From the NCBI GenBank assembly GCA_017620815.1, contig JAGAUI010000009.1:1-61755 (forward strand): DNA of 61,755 nucleotides, read 5' to 3'. The notes beneath the pieces were generated by a model. It was not told the DNA's origin and searched no databases. It was given only the letters and a program-made list of their open reading frames with translations. Below, in pieces: positions 6,851-50,385 of this stretch (the stretch's first letter is position 1; each line of letters opens with the position of its first letter). Made by a program: the position numbers and the translations under genes. The DNA is from Flavobacteriales bacterium (GTDB lineage Bacteria; Bacteroidota; Bacteroidia; Flavobacteriales; UBA1820).

Positions 6851-8014
6851 TTGAAATTAAAGATAGGATACGACGCTAAACGACTGTTTAACAATAGGTC
6901 GGGGTTAGGAAATTACAGCCGTACATTGGTCAGGGATATACTGTCTCGCCATACCAATGATGTGTGCTATCTTTTTACCCCCAAACGTAGTGTGGAGGTG
7001 GATTTCTTACCTTCCACACAGTGCCGTGTCGTTATGCCAAGAGGCGGATGGAAATTGTTGAAGAGTCTGTGGCGTACAGTACGTATAGCTCCCAAATGTA
7101 GAAAAGAGAAAATAAATGTCTTTCATGGTTTGTCTCACGAACTCCCATATGGAATAGAAAAAATGGGGGTAAAAACCGTTCTTACGGTACATGACCTTAT
7201 TTTCATGAGACATCCAGAGTTTTATAATCGTACAGACGTAAAAATCCACACAAAAAAGATACGTTATGCCGTTCAGGTGGCAGATGTTATAATAGCTATA
7301 AGCAACCAGACAAAGGTTGATATCATGGAGCTGTTGGGAGTGGAAGAGGAAAAGATACGGGTGGTGTATCAGGGTATTACTAGACATTCTCTTTATGATA
7401 TGTCGCTTAAAGAGGCCGAAGAAGAACTTAAAAGTTTTCTTCTCCCTACCAAATACATCCTGTGTGTGGGAACGATGGAAGAGCGTAAAAACCAACTCAA
7501 ACTATGTCAAGCCCTTAAAAATATACCAGAGGCTCACCTGGTGATAGTGGGACGTAGCAGTGGCGGTTATGGACAGATGTTACATCGTTATATAAGAGAG
7601 AATGACATAGCAGACCGCGTCAAGATATTCAGCGATGTTACAGACTCCCAACTATCTGCATTTTATAAAAAATGTCTGTATGTGGTATATCCTAGCGTTT
7701 ACGAAGGATTTGGATTGCCTATTGTGGAGGCTATGGCTTATGGTAAACCGGTGCTTACTACACGCGGAGGCTGTTTTGAAGAAGCAGGGGGACGTGCAGC
7801 ATGGTATATGGATAGTAGTGATGTAAATGATATCGCACGTTGTATAAGAAGACTATGGGCAGATGGTTTTGCTCGTGATATATTGAGAGAGAATGCACGT
7901 GAACAGCTCAAGAAATTCTCGGCCGAAAATACCAGCGAAAAAATATATGAGATATACCGTTCTTTAGTAGAGGGAAAAGAAGAAATAGACGCTCAAAACG
8001 ATGAAAAAGAGTGA
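6851..8014 (+). CDS. GT4-type glycosyltransferase
   Basis: A GT-B fold glycosyltransferase of 387 residues, probably cytoplasmic and acting on a surface glycan or lipid-linked acceptor; donor and acceptor cannot be read from the sequence. The N-terminal acceptor domain begins KIGYDAKRLFNNRSGLGNYS, typical of mannosyltransferase-like GT4 enzymes. The C-terminal donor domain has CVGTMEERKN and the E-x7-E motif in YEGFGLPIVEAMAYGKPV. The start is a TTG: an ATG frame just upstream ends at 6848 and no in-frame ATG lies nearby. It is a single gene before the rimP operon. Confidence 0.9.
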   Translation: MKLKIGYDAKRLFNNRSGLGNYSRTLVRDILSRHTNDVCYLFTPKRSVEVDFLPSTQCRVVMPRGGWKLLKSLWRTVRIAPKCRKEKINVFHGLSHELPYGIEKMGVKTVLTVHDLIFMRHPEFYNRTDVKIHTKKIRYAVQVADVIIAISNQTKVDIMELLGVEEEKIRVVYQGITRHSLYDMSLKEAEEELKSFLLPTKYILCVGTMEERKNQLKLCQALKNIPEAHLVIVGRSSGGYGQMLHRYIRENDIADRVKIFSDVTDSQLSAFYKKCLYVVYPSVYEGFGLPIVEAMAYGKPVLTTRGGCFEEAGGRAAWYMDSSDVNDIARCIRRLWADGFARDILRENAREQLKKFSAENTSEKIYEIYRSLVEGKEEIDAQNDEKE

Positions 8015-8020
8015 AAAAAC

Positions 8021-8051
8021 TTGTTTTTCTCGTTATAAAGATATACTTTTG
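8021..8051 (+). promoter_or_regulatory. Promoter for rimP-nusA-infB
   Basis: TTG (8021-8023), 20 bp, TACTTTTG (8044-8051), directly after the glycosyltransferase stop. Transcription should start near 8056, upstream of the hairpin at 8077-8106. Confidence 0.75.
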
Positions 8052-8076
8052 CACTCGTAATTATGACAAGAGGGAT

Positions 8077-8106
8077 TTGGGGAGCGTGAGGCTCCCCAAG
8101 TTTTTT
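8077..8106 (+). terminator. Terminator-like hairpin in the rimP leader
   Basis: TTGGGGAGC and GCTCCCCAA form a perfect 9-bp stem with a 5-nt loop, followed by G and six T. It lies after the good promoter at 8021-8051 and 17 bp before the rimP ATG. It may terminate the glycosyltransferase transcript, act as an attenuator of the rimP-nusA-infB operon, or both. Confidence 0.75.
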
Positions 8107-8122
8107 AAATATAGTACAAGAG

Positions 8123-8596
8123 ATGATAAATAAAGAATTCATTACACGACTAGCCATTGACGCATTACGGGAGAATGAAAGTCTTTTCTTGATAGATGTA
8201 AAGATAAGCAAGTCAATGGATATAACGGTAGTTATAGATGGTGATGAAGGTGTTGACCTAGAGGAGATTATACGCATATCTCGTGCCATAGAACACGCCG
8301 AAGGCATGGATAGAGAAACAGAAGATTTTTCACTGGAGGTAACTACTCCGGGTATAGATGCTCCCTTGTGTAAGGCTCGTCAATATATAAAGAATATAGG
8401 TCGCACACTTAACGTGATAATGACAGATGGTAAAGAATATGAAGGTGAGATAGTAGATGCAGGGGAAGAAAGCGTAAGTATAGAGTGGGTTACCCGCGAA
8501 GCAAAACCAGTGGGAAAAGGTAAAATTAATGTTACACACAATGCCACACTCCTATATTCAGACATTAAAAAAGCTACGATAGTAATCAAATTTTAG
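8123..8596 (+). CDS. rimP: Ribosome maturation factor RimP
   Basis: Binds the 30S subunit and assists its late maturation. The 157 residues include the family's hallmark segment SRAIEHAEGMDRETEDFSLE with VTTPGIDAPL immediately after (about residues 54-80), then an SH3-like C-terminal domain (GKEYEGEIVDAGEESVSIEW). It is the first gene of the conserved rimP-nusA-infB cluster; nusA begins 41 bp later. Confidence 0.95.
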   Translation: MINKEFITRLAIDALRENESLFLIDVKISKSMDITVVIDGDEGVDLEEIIRISRAIEHAEGMDRETEDFSLEVTTPGIDAPLCKARQYIKNIGRTLNVIMTDGKEYEGEIVDAGEESVSIEWVTREAKPVGKGKINVTHNATLLYSDIKKATIVIKF

Positions 8597-8637: not shown

Positions 8638-9879
8638 ATGGATAATTTGGCACTTATAGATTCTTTTTCAGAATTTAAGGAAAGCAAAAAAATAGACCGT
8701 GTAACACTTACGGCTATACTGGAAGAAGTATTTCGTACTGCACTTAAAAAGAAATTTGGTACAGACGACAACTTCAATATCATCGTAAACCCAGACAAGG
8801 GCGATATGCAGATATGGCGTAACCGTGTGGTAGTAGCCGATGGCGAAGTAGAAGACCCTGCCGCACAGATACCACTTAGCGAGGCTCGTAAGATTCAGGA
8901 CGACTTTGAGGTGGGAGAAGATGTATCGGAAGAAGTTAAAATAGCAGACCTAGGCCGTCGTGCTATATTGGCTCTACGTCAGAATCTTCAAGCTCGTATA
9001 TTTGAACACGACAACGCTACCATAATGAAGCGTTTTGAAAACCTACAAGGCACTATCATCACTGGTGAAGTGCATCACGATGTACGTCACAAGATGACTA
9101 TCATACATGATGATTATCAGAATGAATTAGTACTTCCTCGTGAAGAACAAATCCCTGGTGATGTATTCCGCAAGGGTGAGCCTGTACGTGCATTGGTAAA
9201 AGCGGTAGAGATACGCGGTACCAAACCAAATGTAATCCTTTCTCGTACAGACCCACGTTTCTTGGAACTGCTCTTTGAACAGGAAATCCCAGAAATAGCC
9301 GATGGTCTTATAATGATTAAAAAGGTGGTGCGTATCCCCGGTGAAAAAGCCAAAGTAGCAGTAGAATCTTATGACGACCGCATAGACCCAGTAGGTGCTT
9401 GTGTGGGAATGAAAGGTTCACGTATCCATGGTATAGTACGCGAACTATGTGGAGAAAACATAGACGTTATCAACTATACCAATAATATCCAGCTATATGT
9501 TACTAGAGCATTGGCTCCAGCACATCTTTCAAGCATAGAGGTAGATGAAGAAAAACGCCATATATCTGTCTATGTAGCACCAGAAGAAGTATCCAAAGCG
9601 ATAGGTAAAAATGGACAAAACATACGTCTAGCTACCAAATTGATAGGATATGAAATAGATATCTACCGCGAGGGTTCAGATGATTTGGATCTTTCAGAAT
9701 TTTCAGATGAAATAGAACAGTGGGTTATAGATAGCCTACGTGCCATAGGTTGTGATTCAGCCAAGAGCGTACTAGAACTATCCAAAGAAGAACTCATTCG
9801 CCGTACAGACCTCGAAGAAGAAACCGTTGATTATGTAATCAATGTCATCTCTTATGAACTTAACAGTCAGGAAAACTAG
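8638..9879 (+). CDS. nusA: Transcription termination/antitermination factor NusA
   Basis: RNA-polymerase-binding factor that modulates pausing, termination and antitermination. In order: N-terminal RNAP-binding domain (residues 1 to about 125), S1 domain (about 135-205, GEVHHDVRHKMTIIHDDYQN), KH1 with GACVGMKGSRIHGIVREL, KH2 with SKAIGKNGQNIRLATKLIGY, then a short helical end (about 355-413). At 413 residues it lacks the second acidic repeat of the E. coli protein, as is usual outside gammaproteobacteria. NusA could itself act on the terminator-like hairpin in this operon's leader. Confidence 0.97.
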   Translation: MDNLALIDSFSEFKESKKIDRVTLTAILEEVFRTALKKKFGTDDNFNIIVNPDKGDMQIWRNRVVVADGEVEDPAAQIPLSEARKIQDDFEVGEDVSEEVKIADLGRRAILALRQNLQARIFEHDNATIMKRFENLQGTIITGEVHHDVRHKMTIIHDDYQNELVLPREEQIPGDVFRKGEPVRALVKAVEIRGTKPNVILSRTDPRFLELLFEQEIPEIADGLIMIKKVVRIPGEKAKVAVESYDDRIDPVGACVGMKGSRIHGIVRELCGENIDVINYTNNIQLYVTRALAPAHLSSIEVDEEKRHISVYVAPEEVSKAIGKNGQNIRLATKLIGYEIDIYREGSDDLDLSEFSDEIEQWVIDSLRAIGCDSAKSVLELSKEELIRRTDLEEETVDYVINVISYELNSQEN

Positions 9880-9989: not shown

Positions 9990-12836
9990 ATGGCTGAAAA
10001 CGTAACAAAACGCCTCAATAAAGTATTAACTGAACTGAACATTTCGATGGATAGGGCAGTGGAGTACCTTGCCAAAAAAGGTATTCAGATAGACCCCAAT
10101 CCAAATACTAAATTGGATGCTCATACAGTAGAAGTGCTAGAACAGGGCTTCCAGCAGGACAAAAATAAAAAACAACTCATAGAAGAGGTCAATCAGGCAA
10201 AACGTGAGGAAAAAGAAAAACAACGATTGGCTAAGGAAGCAGCTGCCGCAGCCGCTACTGCCGAAACAGAGCCAACACCTCCCGCTCCTCTACAGCCTGC
10301 ACCCAAAGCTCCTGCTACAGAAACAGCAGTAGAAAAACCTCAAGAAAAACAAGACCCCGTTGTAAAACTCAAAACAGTGGGTAAAATAGACCTTGAAACT
10401 CTCAATCGTCCTGTCAAAAAAACTACACAAGAGCCCAAAAAAGAGGAAAAACCAGCACCAAAGGTTGAAAAAACTTCTGCTCCCAAAAAAGAGAAAAAAC
10501 AGGATAAACCAAAACCTGCTCAAGTGCCAGCCCCTGCCCCTGTAGTAGAAAAGAAAAAAGAAGAGAAAGCTCCAGAGGAAAAGAAAACAGAGGCACCTGT
10601 TACCAAGATTGAGACCCAATATCAGAAACTGGAAGGTATCAAGACTCTAGGTAAGATAGATTTGAGTATCTATGATAAACCAAAGACTGCCCCTGCCCCT
10701 AAAAAACCGGTAGGTGCTGTATCATCAGACCAGAAAAAACGCAAACGCAAACGCGGTGAAAAAGTAACTGGTCAAGAGATGAACTCTATGCCTGCCCCAG
10801 AAAAACAGAATAATAAACCTGCCAAAGAACATGGCGGTGGTAATAATAACAATAACCGTTCTCACGGTAAAAACGACAAGAAAAATGCTCCACGCCCTGC
10901 TGCTCGCAAGGTAGTAGAACACGTTGAGCCTAGCGAGGAAGAAATAGCACGTCAGATACGTGAAACGCTAGACAAACTCACTGCTGGTAAAGCAAGCCGC
11001 AACAAGGCCGCCAAATACCGTAAAGAGAAACGTCTTTCACGCCGTGAAGAAGCCAACCGTGAAGCAGAACGCGAGGCAGAAGAGAGCAGAATCATCAAGG
11101 TTACAGAATTTGTAACAGTGAGTGAGGTGGCAACGATGATGGATGTGCCTGTAACACAGGTTATATCTTCATGTATGCAACTAGGCATTATGGCCTCTAT
11201 GAACCAACGTCTAGATGCCGATACTCTTTCTGTGGTAGCCGATGAGTTTGGGTATGAGGTGCAGTTTGTAGATGCAGAAATAGAAGAAGCTATACAAGAG
11301 GTTCAAGACGATGAAAAAGACCTTAAGCGTCGTGCTCCTATAGTAACGGTTATGGGACACGTTGACCATGGTAAGACTTCGCTTTTGGACTACATCCGCC
11401 GTTCAAATGTCATAGCTGGTGAGGCTGGTGGTATCACACAGCACATAGCTGCTTATGGTGTTAAACTGGAAGATGGTCAGCGTATAACATTCCTAGATAC
11501 TCCTGGTCACGAAGCCTTTACCGCTATGCGTGCTCGTGGTGCACAGGTTACAGACATAGCTATCATAGTTATAGCTGCCGATAGTGATGTTATGCCTCAA
11601 ACCAAAGAGGCTATATCTCACGCCCAAGCAGCCGGCGTGCCTATGGTCATAGCTATAAACAAAGTGGACCTACCTACTGCCAACCCAGACAAGATACGTG
11701 AAAGTCTGGCACAGATGAATATATTGGTAGAAGAGTGGGGTGGTAAGGTTCAGTGCCAAGAAATATCTGCCAAAAAGGGTATTGCGGTAAATGAACTTCT
11801 AGAAAAAGTGCTGCTAGAGGCAGAAATGCTTGACCTTAAAGCCAATCCTTCGCGTAAGGCTGTGGGTACAGTTATAGAGGCTTCGCTGGACAAGGGTCGT
11901 GGTTATCAAGCTACGGTGCTGGTACAGAATGGTACGTTGAGAGTGGGGGATTATGCTCTATCTGGTCAATACACAGGTAAAGTTAAAGCTATGTTTGACG
12001 AACGTGGTAACAAACTAGAAAAAGCTGTTCCTTCTCAACCCGTATTGGTTCTAGGTCTGGATGGCTCTCCACAAGCTGGTGATAAGTTCATGATATTTGA
12101 AGATGAAAAAGAAGCCAAACAGATAGCTGCTCGTCGTACACAGCTTAAACGTGAACAGAACGTCCGCACTAGCAAACACATAACTCTTGATGAGATAGGT
12201 CGTCGTATAGCTATAGGAGACTTTAAGGAACTTAATATCATCATCAAGGGTGACGTAGATGGTTCGGTAGAAGCTCTTACAGATAGCCTAGAACGTCTTT
12301 CTACCGATAAAATCCATATCAATATCATACACCGTGCCGTAGGTGCTATTACAGAAAGTGATGTACTTCTTGCATCGGCATCAGAGGCTATTATCATTGG
12401 ATTTAACGTTCGTCCTGCTGCTGGTGCTCGCCGTATAGCCGAAAGCGAAGCGATAGACATACGTACATACTCTATCATCTATGATGCTATAAACGAAGTC
12501 AAAGATGCTATGGAGGGTCTTCTTGCTCCTGAATTTAAGGAAGAAGTTGTGGGTAATGTCGAGATACGACAAGTCTATAAAATATCCAAAGTTGGTAGCG
12601 TAGCAGGTTGTATGGTAACAGATGGTAAAATTACCCGTCAGAGCAAAATCCGCGTTATACGCGATGGAGTGGTGGTACACACCGGCGAATTGGAATCTCT
12701 TAAACGTTATAAAGATGACGTGAAAGAAGTAACCAAGGGTTATGAGTGTGGTTTGAGCGTTGCCAAATATAACGATATAATGGAAGGCGACGTGATAGAG
12801 GTTTACCAGATGGTAGAAGTAAAAGCCAAATTGTAA
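9990..12836 (+). CDS. infB: Translation initiation factor IF-2
   Basis: GTPase that places initiator tRNA on the ribosome. The 948 residues comprise an IF2N-like start ([20 protein letters not shown]), a long low-complexity linker rich in Lys, Pro, Ala and Glu (about 60-330), a second IF2N-type segment ([20 protein letters not shown]), the GTPase core with [14 protein letters not shown] near residue 455, DTPGHEAF and NKVD, then domains II, III and C2. It is separated from nusA by 110 bp that hold no gene. Confidence 0.97.
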
Positions 12837-12860: not shown

Positions 12861-12895
12861 AAACCGAGCCCCGCAGGGGCTCGGTTTCATTTTAT
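12861..12895 (+). terminator. Terminator of rimP-nusA-infB
   Basis: A perfect 12-bp stem AAACCGAGCCCC / GGGGCTCGGTTT around a GCA triloop, followed by CATTTTAT, 25 bp after the infB stop. Confidence 0.85.
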
Positions 12896-12945: not shown

Positions 12946-14241
12946 ATGATAAGATTTCTAGTTACATTTATCCTATGGAGTATGTCTATGGTATTTGCCG
13001 TAGGTCAAGAAGTTAAACATTATCCTTCTCGAGTGGGTTATCCCACATATTGGGGGCAACGCTATACGCAGTTTGTAGCTCTAGGAGTAGAGAGTACAGA
13101 TATCGTTATGATGGGTGATGATTTCATGGACAGAGGTATATGGAATGAATTTTTTGGCAATGAATATATAAAAAACAGAGGTATAGCAGGAGATGTGATA
13201 TCGGCTATGGATTATCGTCTTGATGATGTTTTAAAAGGTCGTCCATCACATATTTATATCTACATAGGCAAACGCGATATTAAAATAGGTGTGAGTCCAG
13301 AATCGGCAGCACATTCTGTGCAGGATATCATCTCTCGCATACACGATAAATCACGTCGTACACGAGTATCGGTTATAAGTATTTTGCCAGAAAAGAACAC
13401 ATCAGATGAACTTTTATCAAAATATATGGCATATAATGAGAGTATGAAAAACGCATCATTAGCAGGGGATTACACATACATAGATATACTCCCTGCTCTT
13501 ACAGGTGATGATAAAAGACTGAAAGAAGAATTTACATATAATTCGGGGACTACACTCAATGGACGAGGATACTATGCTGTATGCAAAGCTCTAGAACCAT
13601 ATATATGTAAAAGTAATATGGTCGCCGAAGGCATAAAAGAGGACTACAAGCTAGCTGGATTTATAAAAGAAAGAAATAGCATAATAGAGTATCTGCCTAC
13701 TCGTAGTGATGATATATTGATGATAGGTAATAGCATTACCAATATAGGTGAATGGGCAGAATTTATACCTTATGCACATTTGCGGAACAGAGGTATAAGC
13801 AGTGATATGACATCGGGAGTGCTAGAGCGTTTGCCACATATGCTGGAGGTGTCGCCTCGTGCAGTATTTTTAATGATAGGGATAAATGATTTGGGGGCAG
13901 GAAAAGACAAAGACTATGTAGCAAATAATATATTAAAGATAGTTGCCGAAATAAAACGTCTTTCGCCTCGTACAGCTATCTATGTAGAGAGTATCCTTCC
14001 TGTCAATCCTACATTTACAGTCTTTAAGACACATATAGACCAAAGCACCTCTATAAAATATGTAAATGCCATACTTGAAAAAGAGGCTTCGCGGGCGGGA
14101 TATACATACATAAATCTACATCGCAGTATGTGTGATAGAGATGGTTACCTCTCTTCAAAATACACCAATGATGGATTGCATTTGTGTTGGGAGGGGTATC
14201 GACTATGGAGAGAGATACTCACCTCATATATACCTAGATGA
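12946..14241 (+). CDS. Exported protein with two tandem SGNH/GDSL hydrolase domains
   Basis: A 431-residue secreted protein (signal peptide to about residue 20, ending FAVGQ) with two SGNH-like domains. The second domain (about 245-431) has intact motifs: MIGNSITNIGEW with the nucleophile Ser, NRGISSD, MIGINDLGAG with Asn, and DGLHLCWEGY with Asp-x-x-His. The first domain (about 50-225) follows the same order but reads MMGDDFMDRG (Ser replaced by Asp), YIGKRDIK (Asn replaced) and NGRGYY where DxxH should be, so it looks catalytically dead. Such enzymes deacylate or deacetylate glycans or lipids; the substrate is unknown. Single gene. Confidence 0.88.
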   Translation: MIRFLVTFILWSMSMVFAVGQEVKHYPSRVGYPTYWGQRYTQFVALGVESTDIVMMGDDFMDRGIWNEFFGNEYIKNRGIAGDVISAMDYRLDDVLKGRPSHIYIYIGKRDIKIGVSPESAAHSVQDIISRIHDKSRRTRVSVISILPEKNTSDELLSKYMAYNESMKNASLAGDYTYIDILPALTGDDKRLKEEFTYNSGTTLNGRGYYAVCKALEPYICKSNMVAEGIKEDYKLAGFIKERNSIIEYLPTRSDDILMIGNSITNIGEWAEFIPYAHLRNRGISSDMTSGVLERLPHMLEVSPRAVFLMIGINDLGAGKDKDYVANNILKIVAEIKRLSPRTAIYVESILPVNPTFTVFKTHIDQSTSIKYVNAILEKEASRAGYTYINLHRSMCDRDGYLSSKYTNDGLHLCWEGYRLWREILTSYIPR

Positions 14242-14252
14242 TGACAACACAT

Positions 14253-14284
14253 AAAAAAGGGCACCCGCAGGGTGCCCTTTTTTA
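14253..14284. terminator. Bidirectional terminator (SGNH gene / small lipoprotein)
   Basis: AAAAAAGGGCACCC, loop GCA, GGGTGCCCTTTTTT: a 14-bp stem including the A/T tracts, between convergent genes. Confidence 0.9.
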
Positions 14285-14302
14285 TGTGTTCTGTGTAGAA
14301 CA

Positions 14303-14500
14303 TTATTCTGCTTTGGCAGTAGAATCACATACAGCAGTTGAATCGCAACAAGCCTCTTGGCAAGCAGTGCTATCGGCAGCAGCTTCTACAACTTCTACAG
14401 CTGCATCTTCTACTACAGCTTCTTCTGCTTTTGGTTCAGAAGCACATGATGTAAATACTGCAACAACAGCAAATGATAGAACGAAAGCTAATTTTTTCAT
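14303..14500 (-). CDS. Tiny Cys-rich lipoprotein
   Basis: A 65-residue predicted lipoprotein: signal MKKLAFVLSFAVVAVFTSC with the lipobox Cys at 19, then an Ala/Glu/Val-rich acidic stretch, then a Cys-containing end in which DSTA occurs three times (DSTACQEACCDSTAVCDSTA). The mature part would hold four further cysteines, which could bind metal or form disulfides. Its own promoter (14574-14581) and the shared terminator mark it as a real expressed gene. I recognise no family. Confidence 0.75.
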   Translation of the reverse strand: MKKLAFVLSFAVVAVFTSCASEPKAEEAVVEDAAVEVVEAAADSTACQEACCDSTAVCDSTAKAE

Positions 14501-14573
14501 TATGATATCTTTTTTAATTATTGAATATTTAATTAAATGTTTCTCTTCTTAAAAACTTTCTTTTAAGACGAGG

Positions 14574-30590: not shown

Positions 30591-30611
30591 TCTCTTTAAG
30601 ATACATTTGTG

Positions 30612-30648
30612 AAAAAAAAGCGGTGCGTGAAACGCACCGCTTTTTTTA
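30612..30648. terminator. Bidirectional terminator (pgk / 30649 gene)
   Basis: AAAAAAAAGCGGTGCGT, loop GAA, ACGCACCGCTTTTTTT: a 16-bp or longer stem between convergent genes, abutting the stop codon of the minus-strand gene. Confidence 0.9.
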
Positions 30649-31332
30649 TCATAAGAAATTATATCCAAATGTGAAGTTGTTTATGTGTGTACGTTCTATG
30701 TTTTTGAAGTCTTGTGCTACCTCATGTGAGAGGGCTAGGTAAATGTGTGAGGATAGGGTTATGTTCAGTTTGAGTTTGAGTTTATATTTCTCTATGGAAT
30801 TGTCTTGTATGTTGTGTGGGAAGGTACATTGGGCACTTATACTCATCACGTCCTTGATGGCTTCTACTTTTACACCGGCCATGTAGTTAAAGTGAGGGTC
30901 GGTAAGGTGGTCGTGGTATGACATACGGCGGGAAGAGGAGAACTTAAATTCACCATAGACGGTAAATCTTTTATATGTGTATTTGGGATTGGCAGAAAGG
31001 TATGCACATAGTATGGTCTCACCTCCGCGGGTGAAATCCACTTCGGCATCGGCAGAAAACGACATAAAACTCCATGGAGAATAGGTATAACATAATTCTA
31101 CTTCGTTACCTGTGTAAGAACTTATGTTGTCGCTCTTGCGGTGGTCGCTGAATACAGAACGTATAGATGGAGATAGGCTGTGCTTGCCATTTTTTCCTAG
31201 TGGGATATTGAATTCTGCACCCAATTTATTTTCAATGGATTTTGAACGGGTGTCTGAACTGTTCTGGGCATATATAGTTCCCCAGCCTATTATTATAAAG
31301 GTGATAGATAGTAATAATGATTGTAGTTTCAT
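30649..31332 (-). CDS. Predicted outer-membrane beta-barrel protein (DUF2490-like)
   Basis: A 227-residue exported protein (signal MKLQSLLLSITFIIIGWGTI, ending YAQ). The mature part consists of alternating amphipathic strands, and the protein ends in aromatic-rich strands (NNFTFGYNFL), as expected for an outer-membrane barrel with terminal aromatic. Its order of strands resembles the DUF2490 family, but I cannot confirm that. I place the start at 31332; the ATG at 31383 lies upstream of the -7 box at 31359-31366. Single gene, function unknown. Confidence 0.75.
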   Translation of the reverse strand: MKLQSLLLSITFIIIGWGTIYAQNSSDTRSKSIENKLGAEFNIPLGKNGKHSLSPSIRSVFSDHRKSDNISSYTGNEVELCYTYSPWSFMSFSADAEVDFTRGGETILCAYLSANPKYTYKRFTVYGEFKFSSSRRMSYHDHLTDPHFNYMAGVKVEAIKDVMSISAQCTFPHNIQDNSIEKYKLKLKLNITLSSHIYLALSHEVAQDFKNIERTHINNFTFGYNFL

Positions 31333-50255: not shown

Positions 50256-50262
50256 ACACACA

Positions 50263-50299
50263 ATAAAAAAAGGAGCGTCCCAGACGCTCCTTTTTTTAT
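50263..50299 (+). terminator. Terminator of the esterase gene
   Basis: ATAAAAAAAGGAGCGTC, loop CCA, GACGCTCCTTTTTTTAT: a perfect 17-bp stem. Confidence 0.9.
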
Positions 50300-50385
50300 A
50301 TCCATATATACCATAATGATGAAAAAATGAACTAAAAAAAGACATTTGTTTACACATTTGATACTGCAATGTAAGCAAATATAGG

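Follow-up and report, generated by a model that had tools for sequence, protein, structure and literature searches.

Known attenuators of the rimP operon

The rimP-leader has been called the most ubiquitous transcription attenuator (PMC2965389). According to a review of earlier work, NusA of Bacillus subtilis is autoregulated through NusA-stimulated termination in the 5' leader (PMC12288461), and in Streptococcus agalactiae transcription of gbs0413-gbs0418 has been found to terminate 31 nt after its start, at a predicted intrinsic terminator, for which feedback by NusA was proposed (PMC4448216). Feedback by NusA in Escherichia coli, likewise as a proposal, is cited in two of these papers (PMC2965389, PMC4448216). 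In Flavobacterium psychrophilum rimP is preceded by a structured 5' element that recurs in other Flavobacteriaceae genera and has no Rfam hit; the section describing it gives no mechanism (PMC9723704). In the literature searched, nothing relevant to a Bacteroidota-specific account was found beyond this Flavobacterium paper, and the string 'bacteroid' has no occurrence in the main text of PMC2965389.

The element considered here is a hairpin situated directly 5' of rimP, nusA and infB, all three with Pfam matches, in the window, by which is meant the whole 61,755-nucleotide stretch of Flavobacteriales DNA analysed. This hairpin is probably a leader attenuator of the operon, and attenuation, as a prediction from sequence, is well supported by the anatomy of the site.

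Anatomy of the rimP leader

The features of the locus are collected in Table 1. An earlier note had claimed a promoter (TTG-N20-TACTTTTG) followed by a hairpin with six T residues ahead of rimP, and these coordinates were verified on the sequence; its spacing of 17 bp between hairpin and gene has to be amended, as 16 bases separate the last T (8106) from the rimP ATG (8123). The operon that it named, with NusA among its products, is borne out by the Pfam domains of all three genes. The pattern TTG-spacer-TAnnTTTG is taken here to be the promoter form of Bacteroidota. Read on the sequence, the hairpin core consists of TTGGGGAGC (8077-8085), the loop GTGAG (8086-8090) and GCTCCCCAA (8091-8099), in which GGGG at 8079-8082 pairs with CCCC at 8094-8097; a single G (8100) stands between the 3' arm and the T-run.

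Table 1. Features of the rimP-nusA-infB locus and its flanks (window coordinates)
Feature	Position	Strand	Basis
Glycosyltransferase gene, upstream, co-directional	6851..8014	+	Glycos_transf_1; ORF list
Promoter-like site, Bacteroidota form	8021..8051	+	TTG 8021-8023, 20-base spacer, TACTTTTG 8044-8051; read on sequence
Short leader from promoter to hairpin core, presumed to hold the transcription start	8052..8076	+	Position only
9-bp hairpin core with a 5-base loop; 5' arm rich in G, 3' arm in C	8077..8099	+	Fold; class conservation
Terminator T-run (T6), early termination expected	8101..8106	+	Sequence
rimP	8123..8596	+	PF02576 and PF17384 above cut-offs
nusA, likely feedback regulator	8638..9879	+	NusA_N and KH domains
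infB (IF2)	9990..12836	+	IF-2, IF2_N and GTPase domains
Probable operon end: terminator-like hairpin 3' of infB	12861..12887	+	Terminator scan

The RNA from 8056 to 8122 folds at -26.2 kcal/mol, against a mean of -10.2 kcal/mol for shuffled sequences (z = -6.68), and none of 200 shuffles folded as well. The list produced by a simple terminator scan of the window does not include the rimP leader hairpin, perhaps, as a guess, because an extension of the stem pairs the T-run with upstream G and A residues. The promoter consensus by itself is weak evidence, because TTG-N18..21-TAnnTTTG occurs 12 times on both strands of the window where 4.7 occurrences are expected; it is the conserved position of the element before the hairpin in relatives that carries the weight.

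The background was assessed on the window together with 20 further stretches of the same genome (L177-L196), amounting to 461,755 of 1,733,009 bases, or about a quarter. In these bases a promoter-like element followed by a strong hairpin with a T-run and then a start codon is found at three places, and the rimP site is the most stable of them. As a separate observation, a strong hairpin with a T-run at 13722-13752 of L187 lies between a promoter-like element and the start of an ORF (13808-14551) whose product, in our reading, looks like a deoxyribose-phosphate aldolase; it is a possible second leader terminator of this genome.

In the mechanism proposed, RNA polymerase would begin immediately past the promoter element (8044-8051) and, having made some 50 bases of leader, meet the intrinsic terminator at 8077-8106, where a fraction of transcripts would end while the rest would read through into rimP, nusA and infB. 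A start of rimP transcription downstream of 8106 appears unlikely, because the 16 bases between the T-run and the ATG contain no TAnnTTTG element and the upstream element is conserved. We infer that polymerase would terminate at this hairpin in cells.

Conservation of the promoter-hairpin arrangement

Regions upstream of rimP were collected from the genus and order (40, the window included, out of 44 matching genomes), the rest of the class (68, out of 131 matching genomes) and other classes of the phylum (39, from 75 genomes), mostly as one or a few loci per family. A strict test demanded TAnnTTTG and, within 8-70 bases, an unbroken hairpin of -9 kcal/mol or lower with a T-run. It was passed by 94 of the 108 class loci, representing 59 of 67 families, and by none of 735 shuffled sequences, five for each of 147 loci with the 39 from other classes included. 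By group, the window passed (1/1), as did all three other genus members, 30 of 36 loci in the order and 60 of 68 elsewhere in the class; among the loci from other classes six of 39 passed. The earlier note had named conservation of the promoter-then-hairpin order in relatives as a check on its claim of an attenuator in the rimP-nusA-infB leader; this order is present at the 94 class loci, and the attenuator claim gains support from an arrangement of promoter, hairpin, T-run and rimP that is conserved across the class.

The strict test failed at 14 of the 108 class loci. By eye, about 11 of these are variants, in which the loop is larger, the T-run or promoter is imperfect, the start codon lies further off or the hairpin has the shorter form found in one family (f6), and three (L116, L127 and L139) are without a convincing hairpin. 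The rimP leader hairpin of family f6 (L008, L011, L013, L015, L016 and L017) is different and weaker; in most of its members, judged by eye, TACG...A-run on one flank could pair with T-run...CGTA on the other, and the T-run would then be locked inside a longer helix.

When the promoter condition was dropped, hairpins were found at 34 of 40 loci in the genus and order (3/200 shuffles), at 63 of 68 in the rest of the class (8/340) and at 28 of 39 in other classes of the phylum (5/195). The hairpins with T-runs of the other classes (L088-L114, L163-L174) have different sequences and are sometimes C-first, for example in family f82.

At the 94 accepted class loci the distance from promoter element to loop centre ranges from 17 to 42 bases, with a median of 33, and at the 84 of them with a usable ATG the loop centre lies a median of 27 bases from the start codon. 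This closeness to the gene, like the 16 bases between T-run and ATG in the window, would also suit a stem at the 5' end of the mature mRNA that protects this mRNA or tunes translation of rimP without any termination. Such a role is improbable: a conserved T-run immediately after a GC-rich stem is the signature of a terminator and would be unneeded for protection, and the short form seen by RNA-seq in S. agalactiae ends at the predicted intrinsic terminator before rimP (PMC4448216).

The gene on the other side of the hairpin offers a further explanation. The glycosyltransferase gene is co-directional and its stop codon (8012-8014) lies 6 bases 5' of the promoter-like site, and the terminator scan lists no other hairpin before the promoter, as would be the case if the hairpin were the ordinary 3' terminator of that gene, with transcription of rimP depending on read-through or on a start that went unseen. 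Long flanks were available for 52 accepted loci, and the closest ORF upstream of these is co-directional in 30, divergent in 17 and not found in five. Since the hairpin is kept at the 17 loci with a divergent neighbour, it is not in general the terminator of the upstream gene, and its short and similar distance behind the promoter element across the class also argues against this assignment, which we regard as unlikely. In the window itself the hairpin could nonetheless have a dual role and serve the glycosyltransferase gene as well.

Polarity and sequence of the stem

The 5' arm of the hairpin is richer in G than in C at all 94 accepted class loci, with a mixed core in L066, and 96 hairpins were G-first and one C-first in the order and class when the promoter condition was removed. 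Of the 122 3' terminators predicted in the window's genome, which provide the background of one genome, 84 are C-first, 27 G-first and 11 even. Leader hairpins thus have the opposite arm polarity to most predicted 3' terminators of the same genome, a further point against the hairpin being the terminator of the glycosyltransferase gene. Of the hairpins from other classes that were found when no promoter was demanded, 17 are G-first, 10 C-first and one even; within the phylum, strong G-first polarity was seen only in the class of the window.

A GGG...CCC core is shared by 89 of the 94 class loci, the window included; 51 have GGGGAC...GTCCCC and 13 GGGC...GCCC. In an alignment of 78 stretches (A1) two-sided changes occur at all eight modelled pairs, in 58 cells as against 18 in shuffles. 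As the rows were chosen for having a hairpin, this covariation leans towards structure, and the shuffles of the strict test are the fairer control. One other genus member (G003) carries a G-C pair in place of the A-T pair that adjoins GGGG in the window.

A more speculative extension, to which we attach modest weight, is that the class hairpin (GRGGGGAC-loop-GTCCCCTC-T-run) might be a sequence-specific recognition element. Its G-first polarity would then be read on the nascent RNA by a protein, through the KH and S1 domains of NusA or by RimP, and the leader, about 50 bases long and lacking an antiterminator, would work as a protein-gated terminator throughout the class.

Searches with Rfam and a covariance model

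An Rfam search of the window gave no match at the gathering score, and with E-values up to 10 the eight weak matches near the site, within 7990-8200, do not include RF01770, the Rho-independent terminator of the rimP operon. None of 60 genomes, that of the window among them, has a match to RF01770 over the gathering cut-off, and the window's rimP site is absent from the RF01770 matches listed for these genomes. The RF01770 model has 102 positions and concerns the same operon.

A covariance model of the rimP leader (R1) matched in 142 of 149 genomes of the class. It scores the window's rimP site at 18.7 bits, against 27.3 bits for the best match in 461,755 bases of the same genome. Hairpins at 30608-30653 and 50258-50305 of the window score 27.3 and 24.2 bits, above the rimP leader. 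Among the matches listed, a best R1 match is given for 85 genomes, 82 of them with a RimP_N match; in these 82 the best match listed is at rimP in 47 and elsewhere in 35, and in the 43 of them that have no row in A1 the best listed is at rimP in 20 and elsewhere in 23. Because best matches are so often away from rimP, the motif alone is not specific. R1 was rejected as a detector of rimP leaders: it acts largely as a general terminator model, and the window's own rimP site is outscored.

Candidate sensors

On the assumption that transcription begins 5 bases beyond the promoter element, the nascent RNA preceding the 3' arm has a median length of 30 bases and a median folding energy of 0.0 kcal/mol at the 94 class loci; in the window it likewise folds at 0.0 kcal/mol, that is, with no stable fold. 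No antiterminator was found in the window. In the class, 20 of the 94 loci have four or more 5'-arm bases that could pair with the leader, and a single one of these loci reaches -5 kcal/mol. The leader is too short to hold a convincing antiterminator.

Several loci of the order have an AUG just 5' of the hairpin, which was rejected as a start codon as the frames disagree by eye. In the window a short ORF at 8063-8089, with an ATG, eight codons and a stop in the loop, would allow attenuation through a leader peptide, and it recurs in one other genus member (G002) with one residue changed. By eye the frame is lost in the other two, the ATG of G001 opening a different frame of 19 codons and that of G003 leading to a stop after two, and this ORF was rejected as a candidate; control by a leader peptide is very improbable.

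Since there is little room for an antiterminator, and no convincing sign of one, the signal to the attenuator would most likely be a protein acting on polymerase and the hairpin. As neither a convincing antiterminator nor a known riboswitch nor a conserved leader peptide was seen, the simplest sensor is a trans-acting factor working on the terminator. The best candidate is NusA, itself a product of the operon: more NusA would give more termination and hence less operon transcript. For NusA as the sensor of the rimP leader attenuator the case is evenly balanced. It is usually the weaker terminators that depend on NusA, and the high stability of the window hairpin (-20.3 kcal/mol, second of the 94 accepted class loci, whose median is -15.6 kcal/mol) counts against it. 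An attenuator that is sensed by another factor, such as RimP, NusG, IF2 or an effect of growth rate on polymerase speed, or that sets a constant read-through, overlaps with the attenuation reading and differs from it only in the sensor. Such alternatives are rather unlikely, as it is for NusA, among the products of the operon, that the literature consulted reports feedback of this kind (PMC12288461, PMC4448216, PMC2965389).

Attenuation at this hairpin would bring the Bacteroidota, a less studied phylum, into the feedback loop on NusA and IF2 that has been proposed as near-universal. The locus also makes a compact test case, with a single promoter and a single hairpin, no convincing sign of an antiterminator, and an arm polarity that is strongly conserved. 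The Bacteroidota include culturable laboratory species. Were NusA the reader of this polarity, the way in which it selects terminators would become testable.

Comparison with known systems

Judged on its sequence, the window element is most likely a Bacteroidota form of a known attenuator. The rimP-leader described by Naville and Gautheret in 2010 has, like the window, a G-rich 5' arm, a C-rich 3' arm and a T-run before rimP-nusA-infB, and its general form, again like the window's, is without an antiterminator and has the gene start within 4-130 bases (PMC2965389). The published stem is GGGc...gCCC, with c...g less conserved (PMC2965389), compared with GGGGAGC...GCTCCCC in the window and, often, GGGGAC...GTCCCC in its class; AGC...GCT follows GGGG... 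in the window, placing the C-G pair two pairs further in than the published c...g. The present analysis adds the breadth of the element in the class, its G-first polarity against the background of the window's genome and the observation that the leader leaves an antiterminator too little room.

The F. psychrophilum element precedes the same gene as that of the window, to which it is likened by its description (PMC9723704) rather than by comparison of sequences. The leader of S. agalactiae resembles the window in having a predicted intrinsic terminator before rimP, nusA and the IF2 gene, with termination seen there by RNA-seq and in Streptococcus (PMC4448216). In B. subtilis the rimP leader, at 180 nt, is longer than that of the window (PMC2965389), while the operon and the logic of NusA autoregulation are as proposed here, an experimental result in that species (PMC12288461) and a proposal for the window.
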